Part shown: positions 10,373 to 52,615 of the stretch, piece after piece
Layout: every line of letters begins with the position of its first letter
How positions within the stretch are numbered: position 1 is the first letter of the stretch
Source: Desulfobacteraceae bacterium
GTDB taxonomy: Bacteria; Desulfobacterota; Desulfobacteria; Desulfobacterales; Desulfobacteraceae
NCBI GenBank assembly: GCA_004796375.1
Contig: QZLA01000384.1
Coordinates: forward strand, 1 to 64,000
Direction of reading: 5' to 3'
Length of the DNA stretch: 64,000 nt
Notes under the pieces: model-generated
Database searches by the model: none
Told to the model about the DNA's origin: nothing
What the model saw: only the letters and a program-made list of their open reading frames with translations
Made by a program: the position numbers and the translations under genes

Positions 10373-12658
10373 ATGAAAAAGATGGATCTCGATATCATTG
10401 AAGAAAGCTTTTTCAGACAGGGCAATCCTTTAAGGAAACTTCTTAAAATTTCTCTTACCCTGTTCAATGCCCGCCAGACCGGAATTCTTTACGGTACAAA
10501 CAGTTCTCACTCGAAGTTTTTGCCCACCAGCCTGTGGGACCGGGGTATCATGGATAAGTTTGACGGACCCGGAATAACCGGATGGGTCCTCAAGGTGTTC
10601 GGCAAATGGATCGTTACAGCGAAAAACCTGAGTCCGGTTTATTTTTATACCCTTGATGATACGGGTAAAAAGAAACTCAACGACGGTATTATCTCCTATG
10701 TTCTCAGAAATTATGCGGATTATTACAGCAAAGGGATCAGTGTACTGATCTGCCCCTACCCGGTAGACCGTATCCGGAAAACCAGGGAGCAGTATCTGTC
10801 CGTGCCTTTGTACAGTTATAACGGTGTCAGGATTCAAAAACCCGAGGATAAAATAAAGATCGATATTCGGATTGTCCGGCAGTTTGAATCCAATAACTCC
10901 ATCTATATCTACCTGCCGTCATACGGTATCCTCGTGGTCAATACCGCGGATGAGCGGCTGCTTGAAATGGAGGGGAACACGTTCCTCCAGGAAGCGGAAT
11001 TGAAGCAGCGTCTGGATCTTCTCATCCGGCTGGTCGAGACTGCGTCCCTGGCTTATTTGGGACAGCTCAAAGGGAAGCGCGGGGCTGAACTGCTCTGGAG
11101 AAAAGAGAGCCACCTGCGGGAAGCCGCAGCCCAGTCCATTGAAAATGAAAGAAAATTTCGGGATCTGTATGAAAATGCGCCCATTGCGTATTTTTCCATG
11201 GATGGTTCCGGCAGTATCATACAGAGCAACAGCCGTGCGGAATCCCTGTCCGGATTCAGCCGCGATGAACTTAAAGGCCGCAGCGTGGTTCATCTGTTGG
11301 CCGATAAGATGGAAATGACCCAGAAACGGCGCTTTATCGCCAAATGTATTGAACAGGATCAGCCGATCAAGGACCTCGAGCTGATGATCACCCGTAAATC
11401 CGGTGAGGATGTCTGGATCAGTCTGTCCCTGGAAGCGGTAAAAGACAAGGCCGGGGAGATAACCGAACTGCGAGCCATGGCAGTAGACATCTCCAAACGA
11501 AAAGGATTGGAGAGACAGCTGCTGCACTCACAGAAAATGGAAGCACTGGGCACATTATCCCGCGGGATCGCCCATGACTTCAATAATATCATCGCCCCGA
11601 TTTACGGATATTCCCAGCTCCTTCTCATGGATATCCAGGAAGAAAATCTACTCAAGCAGAATATCGAAATTATTCACAACTGTGCCGTACACGCCAAGGA
11701 CCTGGTGCAGCAGATGTTGACCTTCAGCAAGCAGAAAGCCGACGGGTTCAAGGCCGTAGCCGTGGATAAAGCCGTGAACCAGGCGGTAGAGCTGGCCCGG
11801 GCATTCTTGCCGGCAACCATCCGGATTGAAGCGGATATTGAATCGGACTGCGGGTGTGTTCTCGGGGATCCGGTACAGATCAACCAGGTGGTGATGAACC
11901 TGGTGACCAATGCCATGCATGCGATGGATGATGGCGGCGGAGTATTGAAAATCGTACTTGAGAAGAAAAATCTCACCCATATTGAAGGTGAGCATGAGAA
12001 TATGGTGCCGCAGAACTATATATACCTCATGGTTGGGGATACCGGGAGCGGAATCGATGAACACCTCATGGAAAATATATTTGATCCCTACTTCTCCACA
12101 AAGAAGGAGGGAAAAGGTTCCGGCATCGGTTTGTCGGTGGTTCATGGCATTATCACCAGCCTTGACGGGTATATTCACGTCCAGAGCCAGAAGGGCAAGG
12201 GGAGTCAGTTCCACGTCTACCTGCCGCTGCATGACGGGCCTGCCACGGATCATGTCAAGATACCGAGTGCCGATAAAATTCTAAAGGGATCGGAGCGGAT
12301 TCTTCTGGTTGAAGATGACAGTGCCGTAGCGGTCATGGTCAAGCAGATGCTCGAGAAACTGGGGTATCAGGTGACCATCCATACCAACAGCCAGGAAGGT
12401 TGTGCGGCATTTCTGGAGCAACCCGCAGGATTTGACGTGGTGGTCACCGATCTGACCATGCCGGGAATGACCGGAATAGAGTTGGCCCGGCATATCAATG
12501 AAAAATCAGAGCATGTTCCAGTCATCATATGCACCGGATTCGGTGAAGGGCTTGATAAGAACCCATGTGGTGAACACGGCGTCAAGGCCCTGTTAAAAAA
12601 ACCGGTGTCCATTAAGGATTTTTCCGTCACCCTCCGCAAAGTACTTGAACACGCCTGA
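10373..12658 (+). CDS. Soluble hybrid histidine kinase with novel N-terminal domain (copy 1)
   Basis: A 761-residue protein without a signal peptide or membrane helix. In order: an unfamiliar 1-250 domain, PAS (about 262-375), HisKA with H401 in GIAHDFNN, HATPase (N-box NQVVMNLVTNAMHAM near 505, DTGSGID 556-562, GKGSGIGLS 580-588) and a C-terminal receiver (642-761) with phospho-acceptor D693. The N-terminal domain could be a diverged GAF fold (LKISLTLFNARQTGILYG near residue 25), but I do not recognise it. It shares most of its length with the next gene. Likely co-transcribed with the decarboxylase 69 bases upstream. No separate response regulator with an output domain is nearby. Confidence 0.9.
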   Translation: MKKMDLDIIEESFFRQGNPLRKLLKISLTLFNARQTGILYGTNSSHSKFLPTSLWDRGIMDKFDGPGITGWVLKVFGKWIVTAKNLSPVYFYTLDDTGKKKLNDGIISYVLRNYADYYSKGISVLICPYPVDRIRKTREQYLSVPLYSYNGVRIQKPEDKIKIDIRIVRQFESNNSIYIYLPSYGILVVNTADERLLEMEGNTFLQEAELKQRLDLLIRLVETASLAYLGQLKGKRGAELLWRKESHLREAAAQSIENERKFRDLYENAPIAYFSMDGSGSIIQSNSRAESLSGFSRDELKGRSVVHLLADKMEMTQKRRFIAKCIEQDQPIKDLELMITRKSGEDVWISLSLEAVKDKAGEITELRAMAVDISKRKGLERQLLHSQKMEALGTLSRGIAHDFNNIIAPIYGYSQLLLMDIQEENLLKQNIEIIHNCAVHAKDLVQQMLTFSKQKADGFKAVAVDKAVNQAVELARAFLPATIRIEADIESDCGCVLGDPVQINQVVMNLVTNAMHAMDDGGGVLKIVLEKKNLTHIEGEHENMVPQNYIYLMVGDTGSGIDEHLMENIFDPYFSTKKEGKGSGIGLSVVHGIITSLDGYIHVQSQKGKGSQFHVYLPLHDGPATDHVKIPSADKILKGSERILLVEDDSAVAVMVKQMLEKLGYQVTIHTNSQEGCAAFLEQPAGFDVVVTDLTMPGMTGIELARHINEKSEHVPVIICTGFGEGLDKNPCGEHGVKALLKKPVSIKDFSVTLRKVLEHA

Positions 12659-12726
12659 TTGTGTTTTACGTTTGATTGCTTATCCTGTATGATACCCCCA
12701 ACAGTCAGCTTATACAGTAGAGACGC

Positions 12727-15003
12727 ATGGATATAGATTTTATTGAAGAAAGTTTTTTCAAGCGGGGAAACCCCTTAAGAAAGCTGTTGAAAATATCTTT
12801 GGAGCTCCTTGGTGCGGAACAGACCGGTATCCTGTATGGTTCAAATGAAACAAAGGTTCGGTTCATGCCGACCCATATGTGGGACCGGGGAATCATGGAC
12901 CGTTTTGACGGACGGGGGCTGAAGGGCCTGGCCCTCAAACTGTTTGGCAAAACCGTGATAGAAGCTAAAAAGCTCAGCCCGGTGTACTTCCACAGAACCA
13001 ACGAGAACGGAGAAAAAGAGGAAACAGACGGGGTGATCGCCCATGTACTGAGAACATGTGCAGATTACTACCGAAAGGGGATCTCGGTGTTCATCTGCCC
13101 GGATATTGAAAAATATATATTCGGCATTGAAGACGGGTATATCTATATCCCGTTTTATTCCTATGATGGAAATTCCATCAAATCACCGCTGGACAAAATC
13201 AAACTGGATGTGCGGATTGTCAGGCATTTCAAAGCGCGCAACTACATTTCTGTTTACCTGCCGGCCTATGGGATCCTTGTGGCCAATACCGCGGATGAGT
13301 CCCTGCTTGAGATGGATGAACACGGGTTTGTCAACGAAACCGAGTTGAAAAAACGGCTGGATATTCTGATCAAGCTGGTTGAAACATCTTCTCTGTCCTA
13401 CCTGGGGCAGCTCAAGGGTAAGCGTGGGGCGGAACTGCTGTGGCGCAAAGAGAGCGAGTTGAGAAAAACCTCCAATGAACTGGTTGAAAACGAACGCCGC
13501 TTCAGGGACCTGTATGAAAATGCACCGGTGGCCTATATTTCAATTGATAAGGAGGGCATCATCTCCGGTTGTAACTCCAATGCATCCATTCTGTCCGGTT
13601 ATGATAAACAGGAGCTGGTGGGTAAAAGCGTGGCGCATCTGCTTTCTGACAAAGACGCGGTGCTGGATATGGGGGCCCGCGTCAAGGAAAGCCTGGTGAA
13701 TGGAACACCGATCAGCGGCATGGAGGTGAGGGTCAGAAGAAGCAGCCAGAAACATATATGGGTCAACCTGAATATTGATGTGGTCAAGGATCGGACCGGG
13801 GAGCTGACGGAACTTCGTGCGGTTGCCATCGATATCACCGACAAAAAAAATCTGGAAAACAGGCTGCTCCAGGCGCAGAAGATGGAGGCGATCGGTACGC
13901 TGGCCGGTGGTATTGCCCATGATTTTAATAACCTGCTTTCGCCGATTTCCGGGTATACTGAAATGCTGCTCATGGATGCAAAAAAGAATTCCGATGATGA
14001 AAGATATCTCAATGTGGTCCTGGATTGTACCCGTCATGCCAAGGAACTCGTGAACCAGATGCTGATGTTCAGCCGCCAGAAGGAGCCTGAGTTTAAACTG
14101 GTTCGTGTGGATATTCTGGTTCAGGATATCCTCAATCTGGCCCGCTCTTTTTTGCCCTCAACCATTGTTATAGAAACCGATATCTGCTCAGAGTGCGGCC
14201 TGGTCAAAGCAGACCCCGTACAAATTCATCAGGTGGTCATGAACCTGATTACCAACGCATTTCACGCCATGGAGGAACATAGCGGAACCCTGGGTGTTTC
14301 TGTTGATGAGATGTTTCTGGGGGAGGGTGAAACACCACGGATGCTGCAGCCGGGTTCATATGTCCATATCCGTGTAGAGGATACCGGTTCCGGTATTGCC
14401 CCCCAGCAGCTGGATAATATTTTTGAGCCCTATTATACCACCAAGACCGAGGGCAAAGGAACCGGCCTGGGACTGTCTGTTGTTCACGGGATCATTGAAA
14501 CCCACGGCGGCAGTATCGAGGTAGCGTCCACTGTCGGTAAGGGGTCGCGTTTTGATATCTTCCTGCCGGTGTGCCATTCAGAGGGGCCCAAGTATGAGGA
14601 ACTGCCTGAAGATGAGGGGATTGAGCAGGGGGATGAACGTGTTCTTCTGGTGGATGACGATGAAAAGGTGGCGGTGATGGAAGCCCAGATGCTTGAAAAA
14701 CTGGGGTATCAAGTTCGCGTCTATACCCACGCTGACACTGCCCTGGATGCGTTTATGGACGACCCCGGCGCCGTGGATATCGTAATATCGGATCTGACCA
14801 TGCCGATGATGTCCGGAGAACAGTTGGCCCTGAGAATCCAGCAGAGCAGTCACCCGGTTCCGGTGATCCTGTGTACCGGTTTTGGTGAGCATGTGGATCG
14901 ATCCAAATTTGAGGCTGCCGGCATTAAAGCGGTTCTGAATAAACCGGTGGCGGTTAAAACCTTTGCAGCGACCCTTCGGTCAGTACTGGACAACAGATCA
15001 TAG
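12727..15003 (+). CDS. Soluble hybrid histidine kinase with novel N-terminal domain (copy 2)
   Basis: A 758-residue paralogue of the previous gene with the same order: N-terminal domain (1-247), PAS (about 259-372), H398 in GIAHDFNN, HATPase (DTGSGIA near 552, GKGTGLGLS near 577) and receiver (638-758) with D689. The N-terminal domains share long blocks, including GNPLRKLLKISL, WDRGIMD and LGQLKGKRGAELLWRKES, so this region is under strong constraint. Both copies keep all catalytic residues and appear active. The 68-base gap to copy 1 suggests one transcript. The pair probably arose by tandem duplication and may form heterodimers or sense different ligands, which is inference. Confidence 0.9.
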   Translation: MDIDFIEESFFKRGNPLRKLLKISLELLGAEQTGILYGSNETKVRFMPTHMWDRGIMDRFDGRGLKGLALKLFGKTVIEAKKLSPVYFHRTNENGEKEETDGVIAHVLRTCADYYRKGISVFICPDIEKYIFGIEDGYIYIPFYSYDGNSIKSPLDKIKLDVRIVRHFKARNYISVYLPAYGILVANTADESLLEMDEHGFVNETELKKRLDILIKLVETSSLSYLGQLKGKRGAELLWRKESELRKTSNELVENERRFRDLYENAPVAYISIDKEGIISGCNSNASILSGYDKQELVGKSVAHLLSDKDAVLDMGARVKESLVNGTPISGMEVRVRRSSQKHIWVNLNIDVVKDRTGELTELRAVAIDITDKKNLENRLLQAQKMEAIGTLAGGIAHDFNNLLSPISGYTEMLLMDAKKNSDDERYLNVVLDCTRHAKELVNQMLMFSRQKEPEFKLVRVDILVQDILNLARSFLPSTIVIETDICSECGLVKADPVQIHQVVMNLITNAFHAMEEHSGTLGVSVDEMFLGEGETPRMLQPGSYVHIRVEDTGSGIAPQQLDNIFEPYYTTKTEGKGTGLGLSVVHGIIETHGGSIEVASTVGKGSRFDIFLPVCHSEGPKYEELPEDEGIEQGDERVLLVDDDEKVAVMEAQMLEKLGYQVRVYTHADTALDAFMDDPGAVDIVISDLTMPMMSGEQLALRIQQSSHPVPVILCTGFGEHVDRSKFEAAGIKAVLNKPVAVKTFAATLRSVLDNRS

Positions 15004-25085: not shown

Positions 25086-27539
25086 ATGACAGGGAAGCAT
25101 CCCGAGGATAATGATCATCGCCTGATATTGGACCGGTATCAGGAAGAATTGCTGGCATACCTGTCAGGGGTCGACTGGATGAAAAAGGGAGGCAATACCG
25201 CAGGGATTGACCCGGATCATCCGTTCCGGGACCTGATGGAAGCGATCTCCATGATCAAGACCAACCTGGACCGGCTGCTGGAACAGCGGGAGGCTGATCA
25301 AAACCGGCTCCGTTTTCAGGAGGAACAGTATCTGTCAACCCTGGAAGAAAGGGTTGCCCAAAGAACCCGGGACCTGGAGATTGAAGTCAGCAAGAAAAAT
25401 CACGCTGAGAAGATCAACCGGGTTCTGTTCAACATTTCAAATGCCGTGAATACCACCCAGGGACTGGATGAACTGTTCCCATCCATCCATCACATCCTCA
25501 ATGACCTGGTGGAGCTGCCCAATTTTCTAATCGGGATCTATGATAAGGATGAAGACCGGATTCATTTCCCCTACTTCAGGGACCAGTATGACAGTGGTAT
25601 CAAGGAGATCCCCAACCTGTCCGGGACCGGGTCCCTCACCGGCGAGGTGATTTTCGGCAACCAACCGCTTTTTCTGACCCATGAGATGCTGATCCGGCGG
25701 TATCATGCCAATGGCATGGTCGGGACGCTGCCCAAGGTGTGGATGGGGGTCCCGCTGGTGATTCAGGATGAGACCATCGGGGTGATGGCCACCCAGAGCT
25801 ATACCGATCCAGAGTATTTTTCCCTCAAGGATCTGGATATCCTGATATCGGTTTCCCATCAAGTGGCACTGGCCATTAACCGGAAGGTTGCGGAGCAGGA
25901 CCTGATCAACGAGACCCGGCGGGCCAACCTGCTGGCTCAAAAAGCAGAGACTGCAAACCTGGCCAAGTCGGAATTTATCGCAAACATGAGTCATGAGATC
26001 CGCACGCCTTTGAACGGTGTGATCGGTATGGCCGAGCTTCTCATGGAGACCAAGCCCAGCGGTCAGCAGGTTCATCTGATAGACACCATCAGTTCTGAAG
26101 CCGATTCATTGCTCAACATCATCAATGACATTCTGGACTTTTCAAAGATTGAAGCCGGCAAACTCAGGCTGGAAAACATCTGTTTTGATCTGAGGGAAAC
26201 CTTTGAGGATATCACCTCTGTGATGGCCATACGCGCCGAGAAAAAGGGCCTTGCTCTCCTGTCCGATCTGGATCCCCGTATCCCATGTCAGATTCAGGGG
26301 GATCCGGGACGACTGCGCCAGGTTTTCATGAATCTGATCGGTAATGCATTAAAATTTACACATACCGGTCGGATTGTTGTCAATGGGCGGCTGGTTGAAG
26401 GGACTGGATCCCAAAGCAACCGGTTTCAGGTAAGATTCTCGGTGGCGGATACCGGGATCGGCATTGCCCTGGAAAAACAGACCGCTATTTTTGACAGTTT
26501 TTCCCAGGCAGACGGATCAACCACCCGGGAGTACGGGGGAACCGGCTTGGGAACCACCATATCCAAACAGATTGTGGAATTGATGGATGGTCAGATCGGT
26601 GTGGAGAGTACGCCAGGACAGGGGAGCACCTTCTGGTTCACGGCATGGTTTGACCGGCAGCCTGAAGCATCCACGCCTTTTTCTGAACAGAAACCAGAGG
26701 GTAAGGCACACCATGCCATGAATCGTGAAAAGGACCGCATTCACTCGCGCAGCCTTTCTAACACTCGACAAAAACACATCCGGATTCTTTTGGCAGAGGA
26801 TTATCCCACGAACCAGCAGATCGCCCTTCGTTATCTGAACCGGTCAGGGTTCCTGGTCTCCCTGGCTGAGGATGGCCAGGACGCGGTGGATCTCTACAAA
26901 CAAAACCATTTTGATCTGGTTTTAATGGATATCCAGATGCCCGCCATGGACGGTTATGAAGCTGCAATGGCCATCAGGCAGTTTGAGCGGACCCTGTCTG
27001 ACAGGGGGCGGGGCGGGAAAAACACACCGATTATCGCCATGACCGCCCATGCCATGGAAGGATATCGGGAAAGATGCCTGAATGCCGGCATGGACGACTA
27101 CCTGACCAAGCCTTTGAAAAAGCAGGATCTGCTTGTGATGATGGATAAGTGGATCAAGGTCGGCAGTGAATCTGGGGCGCGATCATCTTTCCCTGATCCA
27201 ACCGTTCAACCGTATCCCATGGATATGGAAAAAGCCCTGGAAGAGTTTGAAAATGATCAGGCCTTCCTGAATGATGTGGTCGATGCATTCCTCAGGGATA
27301 CAAAACAGCGGATCATTCAGATGGAGGCAGTTACGGCGAAAAGAGATCCGGACCATGTCAGCCGCCTGGCCCACACCATCAAGGGGGGGGCAGCCAATCT
27401 GATTGCAGAGCCGCTATCATTTGCCGCTTCCGAACTTGAGGCGGCAGCCCTTGACGGGCACACCCACCGGATTCCCGGCCTGATTAAGGAGATGAGATCA
27501 GAGTTTGACCGCCTGGCATCCTGGTGGGATCAGGTGTAA
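25086..27539 (+). CDS. Hybrid histidine kinase: GAF-HisKA-HATPase-REC-HPt
   Basis: An 817-residue cytoplasmic phosphorelay protein. Order: a coiled-coil start (about 65-110), GAF-type sensor (115-265), HisKA with H303 in [12 protein letters not shown], HATPase ([10 protein letters not shown] near 416, ADTGIGI near 454, [10 protein letters not shown] near 484), receiver (566-690) with D615 in [10 protein letters not shown], and HPt (about 710-817) with H763 in [12 protein letters not shown] complete internal His-Asp-His relay means an outside response regulator would be the final target. None lies nearby. It starts 9 bases after purN and its 3' end overlaps the convergent EAL-HDOD gene by ten bases. 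Confidence 0.92.
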
Positions 27540-47141: not shown

Positions 47142-48074
47142 TCATCCTTCTGCATGCGTTTTTACACGCACGGCCAGGGCCACCCACTCCTCCTGGGTCA
47201 GGCGCTCTGCAACTTCAAAATCAAGTGTTTGAAGCCGTTCGATAATCTCCTGTTCATGATCGGTGACAATGCCGGACAATATGGCCACACCACCTGGGGC
47301 AAGGCGCTTTTTAATATCTTCGAGGATGTCCAGGATCACCTGGGCGATGATATTGGCGGCAATGCAATGATAGGGATCAGGTGGAAGGGTATTCAAAGTG
47401 GTAAATGCCAGGTCGGTTGCCTTTGAATCCACCCGGTTTTTATCAAGGTTGGTGCGGGCCACGAATACGGCTGTTTCATCATTATCAATGCCTTTGAGAT
47501 ATGACGCACCCAGTAACGCCGCCGTGATCATGAGAATGCCGGAGCCGGTGCCCACATCCAGGAACCGCATACCGGGTGTGATATGCCGGTCCATGAGCCG
47601 GATGCACATGGCTGTTGAGGGATGCGTACCTGTACCAAATGCCATGCCCGGATCCAGATGGATCACACGGTCACCGGGAGAAGGGGTATAGTCACGCCAC
47701 TCGGGTTTGATCACGATGTCAGGTGTAATGTGGGTCACATGGAAAAATTCCTTCCAGGCGTTTTCCCAGTCTGACTCATCCACAGTGACGGTATCCACAT
47801 GGATATTAATATTGAATTCAGACAGGCCGGCCAGCCGCCTTTTAACCTCGGCAAACAGCAGGGCCCCCGTATCGTTACAGGGGACATATCCGACAATGGA
47901 ATACTCGTCGGGCGGTACCAGGGTTTGTGTCCCAAATCCCTCGTCGGGCTCGGTTAAAGGGATATTGCAGACAACGCCCTTTACGCCGCAGGAAAAAAAG
48001 ATGTCACTGATCAACTCCTCGGCCAGGGAGATTTCATGCGTGCTGAAGACGGCCTTAACTTCTCGAAATTTCAT
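47142..48074 (-). CDS. prmA: Ribosomal protein L11 methyltransferase
   Basis: A 310-residue SAM enzyme with the L11-binding N-terminal domain (about 1-90) and a Rossmann domain. LDPGMAFGTGTHPST is the PrmA family block, LDVGTGSGILMITAALLG binds SAM and AANIIAQVI supplies the target-site Asn. A TTG three codons earlier (48083) is in frame, but MKFREVKAVF is the natural start. It is divergent from a secreted sensor gene, and a second PrmA-like gene occurs 2.7 kb away. Confidence 0.93.
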   Translation of the reverse strand: MKFREVKAVFSTHEISLAEELISDIFFSCGVKGVVCNIPLTEPDEGFGTQTLVPPDEYSIVGYVPCNDTGALLFAEVKRRLAGLSEFNINIHVDTVTVDESDWENAWKEFFHVTHITPDIVIKPEWRDYTPSPGDRVIHLDPGMAFGTGTHPSTAMCIRLMDRHITPGMRFLDVGTGSGILMITAALLGASYLKGIDNDETAVFVARTNLDKNRVDSKATDLAFTTLNTLPPDPYHCIAANIIAQVILDILEDIKKRLAPGGVAILSGIVTDHEQEIIERLQTLDFEVAERLTQEEWVALAVRVKTHAEG

Positions 48075-48161
48075 GGGTGTCAAGTCTTGTCTTGAGTTTT
48101 TGTTAAAATCATACTATGTCTCAGTAACACAAACACTGGTCAAAAACGTCTCCGGGAATTC

Positions 48162-49076
48162 ATGAATCGAGCCATCACAGTTTCATTTTTCTGGATCATA
48201 GCATTATTATCTGCAGGATCCAACGCATTTTCAGGCAGCACCGCAACCCTTGTGTACCAAAATGAGCATAAGGTGGAAGCTGCCCGTATCCCGGCCGGTG
48301 ATATGTACAGGTACGGCACCACGCTCAAGGCCCTGGATCCTAATTTTAAGACCCTGGGGGTGAGGCAGTATACTGGAATTGAGATAAAAACGCTGTTGAA
48401 CATGGCTGATCCGGGAGTCCTTGTCCGGTTGTCCGGCGATGGAATTACCATCGTTGGCAAGGATCAGTATGTGGGATACATTCCGTTCTCCATGCTCATG
48501 GACAGTAAGATCATGCTGGTGTGGGAAGCGGATTCCAAACCGATTCCGGCGGTCAACGGCGGACCCTTGAAGATGATGTATCCGGATGATGTCCGGGCCG
48601 ACCCCAACAGCTATACCTGGTATGTGGATACCATCTTTGCCGGGACGCTTGAAGACCCCCGGCTTGACTTGATGAACAGCAATACCAGGATACCCCTCTC
48701 ATTTAAAACCCTTCAGGCCATGTCACAGCCGGTGCCGAAGATATATGTGTCTAAACCGCCGGGATACCGGCCGCCATCAAGGGGTATACAGGATAGCTAT
48801 AGCGCGGTTCCTTTAAGCCGCATTGTGGAGAAGGTGTCGTGCCATACCTGCACGCGGATTGAGTTTACCCCATGGGTCGGTTCCGGTGTGAGCATCGATC
48901 TGGAGCTGGCACTGGATCGGCTGCTCATTTTGGTCAGCATCTCCGGCAGGGCCGTCCACCCCATGGATGGGGGACCGTTTTCTGTCATCTTCCCTGTCGA
49001 GCTGCACAACGAACTATCAGCGCAGACCCCTGAATCCGGTGCGCTGTTTTTCCTGAAGCAGATCACGCTGAGGTAG
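48162..49076 (+). CDS. Secreted protein with two molybdopterin-oxidoreductase-like domains
   Basis: A 304-residue protein with a signal peptide ending near residue 22, so periplasmic. Two halves each resemble the sulfite-oxidase fold. Half 1 (60-140) has YTGIEIKTLL, YVGYIPFSMLM and MLVWEADSKPIPAVNGGPLKMMYP. Half 2 (210-285) has AVPLSRIVEKV, LALDRLLILVSISGRAVHPMDGGPF. The cofactor-binding Cys typical of sulfite oxidase is not evident in half 1; half 2 has CHTC (227-230). It probably binds a ligand rather than doing redox catalysis. Its stop touches the start of the kinase gene, so it is likely that kinase's sensing partner. Confidence 0.7.
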   Translation: MNRAITVSFFWIIALLSAGSNAFSGSTATLVYQNEHKVEAARIPAGDMYRYGTTLKALDPNFKTLGVRQYTGIEIKTLLNMADPGVLVRLSGDGITIVGKDQYVGYIPFSMLMDSKIMLVWEADSKPIPAVNGGPLKMMYPDDVRADPNSYTWYVDTIFAGTLEDPRLDLMNSNTRIPLSFKTLQAMSQPVPKIYVSKPPGYRPPSRGIQDSYSAVPLSRIVEKVSCHTCTRIEFTPWVGSGVSIDLELALDRLLILVSISGRAVHPMDGGPFSVIFPVELHNELSAQTPESGALFFLKQITLR

Positions 49077-50759
49077 ATGGGCAGCACTTCGAAAAAAGGT
49101 CTTAAAGGCCGGCTGTTAACATCGGTATTCAGTGTGGTGACCATCACCATGGTTCTGATCCTGGTATTTGGTTTGTCCCTTGAACAGAACCGGCTTCAGA
49201 AAACAGAAATAGACCGGATCTTTTATGAAACCGATGCCCTGTCCAAGCGATTGGGGCAGATGGTATACAATTCCAATCTGAGATCCGGCATGATTGCGTT
49301 GACCAATTCCATGCAGAGTGATCCGAGTATGCTTTTTTTCACGGTCACCGATCCAAATAACCATGTTCTGATCTCGGACAGGGTATCCCTATCGGAAGAT
49401 TTTCCCGAAGACCGGGTGACCATTCTGAACCAGGATCCGGTGTTTACACAGACCCTGAACACCGGCCGCATATCCAAGCGGTTTTCTGTTTATCTGTCCG
49501 TACTCAACCAGGACATTCTCATGGGTGATCAGCTCAGGGGAAAGGATCAGGAGCGTGTGTTTGATACCATCTGGGATATCGTATATATGGATAAAAAGGT
49601 GGGGTCGCTCAGGATCGGTTTTTCGAGAAAACATCTTAGGGACACCCTTCTTTTTTACTTCTGGATGATGCTGGCTTCAGGCATACTGATCATGGCCGTC
49701 ACCATGCTCATGATTTTTCTGGTGATCAAAAGAAGCCTGCTGCCGTTTGAACGCCTGATGGCTGATCTTGCAGGGCTAAAGGATATCGGTCATGAAGGAA
49801 GCCTGAAGAAACAGCTGGATAAAATGAGCTGGGAGGAGAATGATGAGAACCTGCTCGAAGCGGTCCGCCTGAAAGCTGCCCTGCAGCGGATCAAAGAATT
49901 GTTCAGCCGTAACCTCGCTCAACTGGAGGCGCATCAGGACAACCTGGAACAGATGGTGGATGAACGGACCACGGAACTCAATGCCATCAACATTAGGCTT
50001 AAAAATCACCTGGCCGAGCGAAAAGAGATTGAAACGCGGCTGGTCAATGCCCAGAAACTGGAATCCATTGGCACACTGGCCGGCGGAATTGCCCATGAAT
50101 TCAACAACTTGTTTATGGCCATTGCCGGGTATGCCGCCCTGATCCAAAGGCGATCCGAACCCGGGCACCCCAACCATGACAAGGCGGAAAAGATAAGGGA
50201 TCTGGTTGCAAACGGGTCGGAATCCATCAAGCAGCTCCTCGGGTTTGCCAGGAGCGGGAAATATTCTCCCATGGCCCTGAATCTGAACGAGGTCATCAAG
50301 GCGAATATGATGGTCATGAAGCACTCCCGAAAGGATATGGAAATCGATACCCGTCTGGAAAGTAAAATATCCAGCGTATATGCTGACCGGGCCCAGATGA
50401 ATCATGTCATCATGAACCTGTTCCTGAATGCCTCTGAGGCCATGCCGGGAGGCGGTACCTTGACCATAGAAACCCGGAACGTAGAGATCAAAAACCGGCA
50501 GATCGGTATTGAGAAAGCAGTGTCCGGACCGTTTGTCATGTTCTCGTTTAAAGATAGCGGTCACGGTATGGCTCAGGATGTGGTAGAACGGGTATTTGAC
50601 CCATTTTTCACCACCAAGGAGATGGGGGTCGGCACCGGTATGGGCCTGGCGTCCGTTTATGGTATCATTGACAATCACAAAGGGTTTATCACTGCAGAAA
50701 GCACACCGGGAAGCGGATCAGAGTTCTGTGTTTTTCTTCCCGCCATCAGCCATGAATAA
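49077..50759 (+). CDS. Membrane sensor histidine kinase
   Basis: A 560-residue inner-membrane kinase. TM1 is about 13-33, a periplasmic sensor 34-190 and TM2 191-217. A HAMP-like linker and a coiled coil (270-320) lead to HisKA with H340 in GGIAHEFNN, then HATPase (NLFLNASEAMPGGGTL near 447, KDSGHGM near 492, GTGMGLASVYG near 519). There is no receiver and no response regulator in the surrounding genes. It starts on the base after the stop of the secreted sensor-like gene and overlaps the methyltransferase start by eight bases. Confidence 0.92.
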   Translation: MGSTSKKGLKGRLLTSVFSVVTITMVLILVFGLSLEQNRLQKTEIDRIFYETDALSKRLGQMVYNSNLRSGMIALTNSMQSDPSMLFFTVTDPNNHVLISDRVSLSEDFPEDRVTILNQDPVFTQTLNTGRISKRFSVYLSVLNQDILMGDQLRGKDQERVFDTIWDIVYMDKKVGSLRIGFSRKHLRDTLLFYFWMMLASGILIMAVTMLMIFLVIKRSLLPFERLMADLAGLKDIGHEGSLKKQLDKMSWEENDENLLEAVRLKAALQRIKELFSRNLAQLEAHQDNLEQMVDERTTELNAINIRLKNHLAERKEIETRLVNAQKLESIGTLAGGIAHEFNNLFMAIAGYAALIQRRSEPGHPNHDKAEKIRDLVANGSESIKQLLGFARSGKYSPMALNLNEVIKANMMVMKHSRKDMEIDTRLESKISSVYADRAQMNHVIMNLFLNASEAMPGGGTLTIETRNVEIKNRQIGIEKAVSGPFVMFSFKDSGHGMAQDVVERVFDPFFTTKEMGVGTGMGLASVYGIIDNHKGFITAESTPGSGSEFCVFLPAISHE

Positions 50760-51603
50760 TCCGAGACCGATATATAAAAATCCGTATGAACTGCTGCATA
50801 TCTATTATCTAAACGGGGTATCCGGTCTCAGGGACCGGGATGTCGACCATGCCCGTTTTTTGGGCATGTGGGTGGAGGAGGATACCTGTTTTCTGTTTTT
50901 TTCCAACGAAGTTGATACATATATTGACGAATTGATCGATCCCTTACCTGGAATAGAGTTGGTTGAGAAATATGAGATGACCATGGAGCAGTGGCATGGC
51001 GACAAAATCGTTCCCTACCGGGTGGAGGACCTGATGATCTGCCCGCCATGGGAGCAGGAGGCCTTGCAAAGAGAGGGCATGCAGCCCATTATCCTGGATC
51101 CGGGCGTGGTGTTCGGTACAGGGAGGCATCAGACCACGGAAGACTGCCTGGTACTCATCCAGCGGATCCTGGGCAGGGAGAAAATTGACCGTGTACTGGA
51201 TATCGGTACGGGTACCGGCATCCTGTCCCTGGCGGCATCCCTACTGGGGTGCCCGCATGTGGTGGCCATTGATTTCAACCTCCTGGCTGTCCGTACCACG
51301 CTGAAAAATGTCAGGCACAACCGGATGGAAGACCGCATCCTCTGCGTCCAGGCAAGGGGTGAGGAGATGGCATCCATCCCTTCGGACCTCCTGATTGCCA
51401 ATATCCATTTTGATGTGATGAAGCACCTGGTGGAGACTCCCGGATTCTTGACATCCACATGGTTTATCCTGTCCGGACTGCTGAATTCAGAAGCGGTAAA
51501 GATCCTGGGGCAACTAAAAACCAAGCCGGTTCAGGTTATTGAACGGCGCTGTCCGGATGGGGTCTGGAATACCATCCTGGGCAGGGTCACTCAAATCGAT
51601 TAA
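50752..51603 (+). CDS. PrmA-like SAM-dependent methyltransferase
   Basis: A 283-residue paralogue of PrmA. It has LDPGVVFGTGRHQTTEDC, SAM site LDIGTGTGILSLAASLLG, LIANIHFDVMKHLV and FILSGLL, all at PrmA-like places, but its N-terminal domain differs from that of the L11-binding enzyme. The substrate is therefore probably another protein. The start ATG overlaps the kinase gene by eight bases, so it is translated with the kinase. The frame opens earlier at 50596 inside the kinase, which is not a plausible start. A D-cysteine desulfhydrase family gene follows 13 bases later. Confidence 0.85.
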   Translation: MNNPRPIYKNPYELLHIYYLNGVSGLRDRDVDHARFLGMWVEEDTCFLFFSNEVDTYIDELIDPLPGIELVEKYEMTMEQWHGDKIVPYRVEDLMICPPWEQEALQREGMQPIILDPGVVFGTGRHQTTEDCLVLIQRILGREKIDRVLDIGTGTGILSLAASLLGCPHVVAIDFNLLAVRTTLKNVRHNRMEDRILCVQARGEEMASIPSDLLIANIHFDVMKHLVETPGFLTSTWFILSGLLNSEAVKILGQLKTKPVQVIERRCPDGVWNTILGRVTQID

Positions 51604-51616
51604 GGAGAATATTACC

Positions 51617-52615
51617 ATGAACTATACCCGATTTGCCAGGCGGCACTACCTTCAGGGATCGACCCCGATTGAACATCTGCCCAATCTCAGCAAGCACCTG
51701 GGAGGCGGTGTGGAAATCTTTGTTAAACGGGATGACCTGTTACCCGGTGCAGCCGGGGGGAATAAAACCCGGAAACTGGAATTCCTGGTGGCAGATGCAC
51801 TGGAAAAGGGCGCAGATACCCTGATCACGTGTGGTGCGATTCAATCCAATCACTGCAGGCTGACCGCATCCTGGGCGGCAAAGGAGGGACTTGACTGTCA
51901 CCTGATCTTGGAGGAGCGGGTTGAGGGGACCTATCAGGAGGATGCCGGTGGGAACAATTTTCTGTATGAACTATTGGGAGTGAAGAGTAAAACCGTTGTA
52001 CCCGGCGGTTCGGATCTGGCGTTTGAAATGGAGGAGAAGGCCAGGGCGCTCATGGATCATGGCAAGCATCCTTATATCATACCCGGCGGGGGATCCAATT
52101 CAATCGGGGCCTTGGGATATGCGGTGTGTGCAGAGGAAACCATGGCCCAGCTCAACCAGATGATGCTGGATATTTCCCATATCATCCTACCTTCAGGCTC
52201 GGCAGGCACCCATGCCGGCATGGTGGCAGGCATGGCCGGTATCCATGCCGATATACCGGTGAGCGGCATCAATGTGGCAAGAGAAAAACTGGCCCAGGAG
52301 GAGATGGTGCATGAACTGGCCCTTGAATCCGCAGAAAAACTTGGTGTGCTGTCCGGGATCTTGCGGGAGTCGGTGGTCTGTTATGACGGGTATGTGGGAG
52401 AGGGATACGCTATTCCGACCGAGGGGATGGTCGAGGCTGTAAAACTGTTTGCACGCCTGGAGTCGATACTCCTGGATCCCGTATATTCGGGTAAAACCGC
52501 GGCCGGTATGATCGATCTTATAAACACCCGGTGCTTTGACAAAGGCTCAAAGATCCTGTTCCTCCATACAGGGGGTTCTCCCGCCCTGGGCGTTTATATG
52601 GACAGTTTCAGGTAG
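51617..52615 (+). CDS. D-cysteine desulfhydrase / L-cysteate sulfo-lyase family enzyme
   Basis: A 332-residue fold-type II PLP enzyme of the ACC deaminase group. The PLP lysine is K50 in GGNKTRKLEFL, and QSNHCR (76-81) is the substrate loop. Members release sulfide from D-cysteine (DcyD) or sulfite from L-cysteate (CuyA). In a sulfate reducer both are plausible, and sequence alone does not separate them; a CuyA role would feed sulfite to respiration. The start follows AAGGAG at 51602. The frame upstream to 51539 belongs to the methyltransferase. Confidence 0.88.
   Translation: MNYTRFARRHYLQGSTPIEHLPNLSKHLGGGVEIFVKRDDLLPGAAGGNKTRKLEFLVADALEKGADTLITCGAIQSNHCRLTASWAAKEGLDCHLILEERVEGTYQEDAGGNNFLYELLGVKSKTVVPGGSDLAFEMEEKARALMDHGKHPYIIPGGGSNSIGALGYAVCAEETMAQLNQMMLDISHIILPSGSAGTHAGMVAGMAGIHADIPVSGINVAREKLAQEEMVHELALESAEKLGVLSGILRESVVCYDGYVGEGYAIPTEGMVEAVKLFARLESILLDPVYSGKTAAGMIDLINTRCFDKGSKILFLHTGGSPALGVYMDSFR

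Follow-up and report, generated by a model that had tools for sequence, protein, structure and literature searches.

A tandem PruR-like protein and a receiver-less histidine kinase as a probable periplasmic sensory cassette beside a PrmA-fold methyltransferase in Desulfobacteraceae

The PruR-DcpA and PruR-DTB pairs are pterin sensor systems, the DTB types including members with a histidine kinase output (PMC13259868). PruR comprises ~170 aa, a Trp mostly replaces the molybdenum (Mo)-ligand Cys of the fold, and the contact residues are a Tyr and an Asn, the latter being Asp in some groups (PMC13259868). In PrmA, the ribosomal protein L11 methyltransferase, Asn191 is the catalytic Post-II residue (PMC10238732), and an Agrobacterium METTL20-type homolog is cited there as acting on L7/L12 and the electron transfer flavoprotein (ETF) beta subunit. 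Here, we analyzed a 64,000-nt stretch of DNA from a Desulfobacteraceae bacterium (contig QZLA01000384.1, positions 1 to 64,000; the window), in which a secreted protein with tandem sulfite oxidase (SUOX)/PruR-like units (SEC), a membrane histidine kinase (HK), and a PrmA-fold, S-adenosylmethionine (SAM)-dependent methyltransferase (MT) are encoded in a row. We consider it probable that SEC-HK is a periplasmic, PruR-type sensory cassette and that MT is a separate protein rather than its signalling output.

The reading frames, coordinates, and spacing of the three genes are all as given in an earlier reading of the letters alone (the original prediction), with no base between SEC and HK and an overlap of 8 bases between HK and MT. 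Its description of SEC as a secreted protein of two halves, each with a GGP block and the first without an evident cofactor Cys, was borne out as well. The N-terminus is signal-peptide-like as judged by eye, and the PF00174 match covers half 1. Aligned to each other with hhalign, the halves prove homologous (Prob 96.4, E 1.1e-9), and the designation as tandem is therefore correct. Across 11 aligned SEC homologs, both GGP blocks are invariant and no conserved Cys was found at the Mo-ligand position. Residues D59, N61, and F62 of the nearby DPNF motif are invariant too, and this motif aligns beside the 'TPW' of PruR entry 7kp2, with a gap between. The DQY motif, which is missing from half 2, aligns as D101-Q102-Y103 with N-D/K-Y of PruR and is likely a putative pterin-contact Asn/Tyr site, for which we infer the match to the published residue numbering. 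When the profile of these homologs was compared with the PDB, four PruR-type pterin-binding entries matched at 1.9e-9 to 2.2e-7 (7kos at the top with 1.9e-9, then 7rkb, 7kom, and 7kp2), and sulfite oxidases ranked below them (6.8e-6 and weaker).

The kinase partner was correctly predicted to have no receiver and no response regulator nearby: the domain search found no receiver in HK, and the window contains no stand-alone receiver, receivers occurring there in three hybrid kinases only. Several HK relatives outside the family of the window have the hybrid form with a C-terminal receiver. HK is an intact kinase; its HisKA match lies below the family cut-off, and the column of its predicted phospho-acceptor H340 is invariant in 10 kinases. 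In an HK relative, the kinase of locus L116, the Cache-like character of the periplasmic domain appears as a weak dCache_1 match.

The three-gene order, which the original prediction had proposed to seek elsewhere, is not unique to one genome. Among 86 genomes from the family of the window, SEC was found in 14 and MT in 59, and 13 genomes from six genera show the arrangement PrmA< >SEC>HK>MT (the window's own genome G000 as well as G496, G499, G500, G523, G528, G537, G538, G553, G557, G558, G559, and G560; loci L034 and L038 belong to G523 and G528). The divergent PrmA gene lies upstream in all 13 triads, either whole or as a remnant (the latter in L034), and the spacing of the triad genes in relatives ranges from -4 to about +40 bases. 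Because these genomes keep the order despite a SEC identity of only ~31–40%, the arrangement exceeds chance. SEC is incomplete or broken in the triads of G557 and G559, where HK and MT are kept. Moreover, 45 genomes of the family have MT but no SEC. At 20 family loci, PrmA< >MT stand side by side, 73–435 bases apart and lacking the cassette, and in G556 the SEC>HK pair and the PrmA< >MT pair are on separate contigs. Most simply, SEC>HK would have entered an ancient PrmA< >MT pair and then been lost from it frequently. In a tree of MT sequences, the cassette-less loci L035 and L036 are nested among triad members, which fits such repeated loss.

Across the order and the phylum, SEC is rare: 9 genomes among 194 of the order carry it, as do 4 among 297 sampled from the phylum, the latter number including the window itself and a single match that is weak and partial. 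In all eight further SEC-bearing genomes of the order and in two of the phylum, HK directly follows SEC and no MT adjoins; a short open frame lies between SEC and HK in G089, and in G169, a one-contig genome, MT is located ~390 kb from SEC. The pairing of SEC with a kinase, as originally proposed, is thus conserved within the family and outside it. A plasmid of the cyanobacterium Leptolyngbya (L202:618-3148) encodes a tandem SEC homolog of 348 aa (1.9e-27 in a two-sequence search), the gene of which overlaps that of a membrane adenylate/guanylate cyclase by 4 bases. The periplasmic part of this cyclase is homologous to that of HK (HMM 4.5e-25 in a two-sequence search; hhalign 98.5). On a Pantoea plasmid with the order RR-GNAT-PruR-like-HK, a single-domain relative is followed by a histidine kinase, the response regulator (RR) standing before. 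Based on these two arrangements, sequence comparison points to the periplasmic domain as the conserved partner of SEC, the cytoplasmic output being whatever is fused behind it. Since the kinases of relatives bear receivers and the homologous domain occurs on a cyclase, the output would reside in the membrane protein. As side observations, the Pantoea set (L201:2108-5038; PruR-like protein, kinase, GNAT, and response regulator) sits among tra genes of a conjugative plasmid, and in genus g30 SEC>HK is followed by a lipoprotein that resembles the flavin transferase ApbE when judged by eye (L120:3600-4691, L122:9586-10608, and L123:9069-10088).

Taken together, homology and synteny support the step from sensor to kinase. 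In the mechanism that we propose, the first half of SEC would bind a small molecule, with a reduced pterin as the likeliest ligand. Thus loaded, SEC would dock on HK at its Cache-like periplasmic domain and alter HK autophosphorylation, and the phosphate would pass to a response regulator whose gene lies elsewhere. The cassette sits between the divergent genes prmA and MT, which would be older, with MT at most co-transcribed. Several observations weigh against this proposal. The DPNF region of SEC holds no Trp in the alignment to PruR, and the periplasmic domain of HK lacks the WX7E motif, having L in place of the conserved W and T at position +8 (the E is kept in the L038 homolog only). An AF2 model of SEC built from a three-row alignment was poor (pLDDT 48.5), and the fold assignment therefore rests on sequence profiles. 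Furthermore, all 14 SEC-bearing family genomes have MT (hypergeometric p 0.003, with no phylogeny correction), and in genus g3 SEC and MT are both present in 3 genomes and both absent in 16, which makes some link between them conceivable.

The third gene was rightly described as PrmA-like. A second PrmA-family gene (47142-48083), divergent from SEC, was not mentioned in the original prediction. An AF2 model of MT (12 sequences) reached a pLDDT of 90, and its top Foldseek match was PrmA 3cjq (E 4.2e-16 over 272 columns covering both domains, TM 0.59/0.66). On TIGR00406, the prmA equivalog with a cut-off of 183.15 bits, MT stays below with 127.3 bits and the adjoining PrmA passes. In a tree with several long branches, the PrmAs of the window, L034, L038, L048, and E. 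coli form one group (99/97) and the MTs another. Besides the Post-II Asn, which is invariant in 12 MTs, H219 and D221 are invariants specific to the MT family. By these measures MT is a paralog with the PrmA fold that stands apart from canonical PrmA, and we propose that it is a protein methyltransferase with its own substrate. A third PrmA-like gene of the same genome (L087:5649-6569, contig 202 of G000) lies in an mnmE/yidC region, matches MT at 36% identity along part of its length, and scores under the prmA cut-off. In one Desulfobacula genome, the triad-side PrmA gene (L034:5029-5292) is cut down to ~residues 1-53 next to an intact MT.

MT was found in 129 of the 194 order genomes and also reaches other families in the phylum. 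At 45 of 63 order loci, it is accompanied by at least two of the genes for a CooC-like ATPase, HDAC, CBS, MBL-fold, Sir2, and RACo/AcsV-like proteins. In high-quality order genomes, MT and acetyl-CoA synthase (ACS) are both present in 83, MT only in 3, ACS only in 25, and neither in 12 (p 3e-5, with no phylogeny correction). One conserved Desulfobacterales cluster (L062:4543-11005) contains the CooC-like ATPase, HDAC, CBS, MT, MBL-fold, Sir2, and RACo/AcsV-like genes, which places deacylases and a methyltransferase next to corrinoid activation genes. A literature search on MT-like gene neighbourhoods yielded nothing relevant.

These distributions bear directly on the chain that the original prediction had drawn, in which SEC senses, HK relays, and MT methylates a target under HK control, either by contact or by phosphorylation. 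A tight operon kept in 13 genomes of six genera despite the divergence of SEC, family HKs without receivers, and the absence of family genomes with SEC but no MT all speak for it. However, MT is present without SEC in the 45 family genomes and in most of the order (129 genomes with MT against 9 with SEC), and the 20 PrmA< >MT loci have no cassette. Conversely, the cassette lacks an adjoining MT in the 10 order and phylum genomes, the receiver-less HK of G556 is encoded away from MT, relatives' HKs bear receivers, and the two triads with a broken SEC retain HK and MT. Because cassette and MT each occur without the other, a step from kinase to methylation is unlikely, and we regard the complete chain as highly improbable. 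The same holds for the idea that, in this family, SEC and the receiver-less HK control MT, which, if true, would let a periplasmic pterin-like signal alter lysine methylation of a cytoplasmic protein. MT as a substitute for a lost receiver was rejected, as the HK of G556 (562 aa) is also receiver-less, yet has no MT beside it. Somewhat more room is left for a regulated dosage, in which the SEC-HK promoter, perhaps autoregulated, transcribes MT and the sensor sets the amount of MT and not its activity. This is compatible with a PruR-like cassette and agrees with the tight spacing and with the displacement of MT from its usual place opposite prmA, but the promoter scan stayed at background, and we hold it as a tentative possibility. 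On the sensor side, SEC might instead be a sulfite-oxidase-type molybdenum or redox enzyme that signals turnover to HK, as its PF00174 match, the SUOX-like GGP motif, and a weak SorA match would suggest; given 11 homologs without the Mo-ligand Cys and PruR entries that outscore the oxidases, this is very unlikely.

The substrate of MT can be weighed separately. A second L11 methyltransferase would be in line with the full two-domain PrmA fold, the Post-II Asn, and the truncation of prmA in L034 with MT intact. On the other hand, a canonical PrmA gene adjoins, the genome contains a third PrmA-like gene, and MT groups apart, with the invariants H219/D221 and a score under the equivalog cut-off, all of which makes an L11 enzyme doubtful. 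A target in C1 or acetyl-CoA (Wood-Ljungdahl) metabolism, for example a corrinoid protein, a CO dehydrogenase/ACS (CODH/ACS) protein, or an activator, can be suggested from the CooC/HDAC/CBS/MBL/Sir2/RACo-type neighbours and the co-occurrence with acetyl-CoA synthase in the order. Such neighbours are, however, absent beside MT in the family of the window, where MT pairs with prmA, and outside the order, which leaves this target conceivable but well short of probable. An assignment as ETF-beta methyltransferase, an idea derived from neighbouring acyl-CoA dehydrogenase genes, was discarded, as the conserved MT cluster contains no etf genes.

Coordinates of all features are collected in Table 1. 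The gene for a PLP-dependent enzyme starts shortly past MT and is perhaps in one transcript with it; gene-order comparison showed that this neighbourhood is not kept in relatives. Promoter and terminator scans gave no signal over background. Elsewhere in the window (10373-15003), two adjacent PAS-HisKA-HATPase-receiver hybrid kinases have similar N-termini and are probably a tandem duplication.

Table 1 Genes, domains, and motifs of the locus, with positions in the window
Feature	Position	Strand	Evidence or remark
SEC, secreted tandem SUOX/PruR-like protein, 304 aa	48162..49076	+	PF00174 2.9e-11; 11 homologs aligned
SEC DPNF, residues 59-62	48336..48347	+	Near Mo-ligand Cys/PruR Trp position
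SEC DQY, residues 101-103, half 1	48462..48470	+	Invariant in 11 homologs
SEC half 1 GGP block, residues 133-135	48558..48566	+	Invariant in 11 homologs
SEC half 2, second SUOX-like unit, ~residues 180-304	48699..49073	+	hhalign vs half 1
SEC half 2 GGP block, residues 270-272	48969-48977	+	Invariant in 11 homologs
HK, membrane histidine kinase, 560 aa	49077..50759	+	HATPase_c 1.9e-17; HisKA 2.7e-4
HK periplasmic sensor domain, Cache-like, ~residues 38-188	49188..49640	+	Homologs in SEC-paired kinases and the Leptolyngbya cyclase
HK predicted phospho-acceptor His340 (GTLAGGIAHEFNN box)	50094..50096	+	Column invariant in 10 kinases
MT, PrmA-fold SAM methyltransferase, 283 aa	50752..51603	+	PF06325 2.5e-40
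MT Asn217 (ANIHFDV)	51400..51402	+	Invariant in 12 MTs; aligned to 1ufk; corresponds to PrmA Post-II Asn191
Canonical PrmA (ribosomal protein L11 methyltransferase)	47142..48083	-	PF06325 1.3e-70; TIGR00406 193.7 bits; divergent from SEC
PLP-dependent enzyme, D-cysteine desulfhydrase-like	51617..52615	+	PF00291 7.1e-48; starts 13 bases past MT
Receiver-bearing hybrid kinases	10373-12658, 12727-15003, 25086-27539		Nearest ~21.5 kb from HK

If correct, our reading would add sulfate reducers and, through the homologous proteins, a cyclase of a cyanobacterium to the reach of PruR-type periplasmic pterin sensing, which was recognised only recently. It also adds a double-domain form, whose conserved partner appears to be a Cache-like domain that can be joined to different outputs (kinase, hybrid kinase, and cyclase). 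Furthermore, it sets apart a PrmA paralog that is widespread in Desulfobacterota, is called L11 methyltransferase by family searches, and has usual neighbours that suggest a different substrate. MT shares with PrmA (TIGR00406; PDB 2nxc and 3cjq) the two-domain fold, the DPG-x-x-FGTG-x-H motif, and the Post-II Asn, but differs in its separate tree group, its score under the equivalog cut-off, its divergent N-terminal recognition domain, and the canonical PrmA encoded next door. With bacterial METTL20-type enzymes, the likeness is by description only, both being (MT putatively) seven-beta-strand lysine methyltransferases with targets other than L11. As in the PruR-DcpA and PruR-DTB pairs, a secreted SUOX-type protein without the Mo-ligand Cys is encoded immediately before a membrane regulator whose periplasmic domain spans ~150-190 aa, and HK provides the histidine kinase output seen in PruR-DTB. 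In contrast to the single ~170-aa domain of PruR, SEC has 304 aa in two homologous halves and no Trp, HK does not carry the WX7E motif of PruR-DcpA systems, and the SEC systems, with their putative pterin binding, are found in Desulfobacterota and a cyanobacterium. Since it departs from these pairs in single-domain size, Trp, and WX7E, SEC-HK is, as judged from its sequences, a PruR-DTB-like system of a tandem variety rather than a member of that group.

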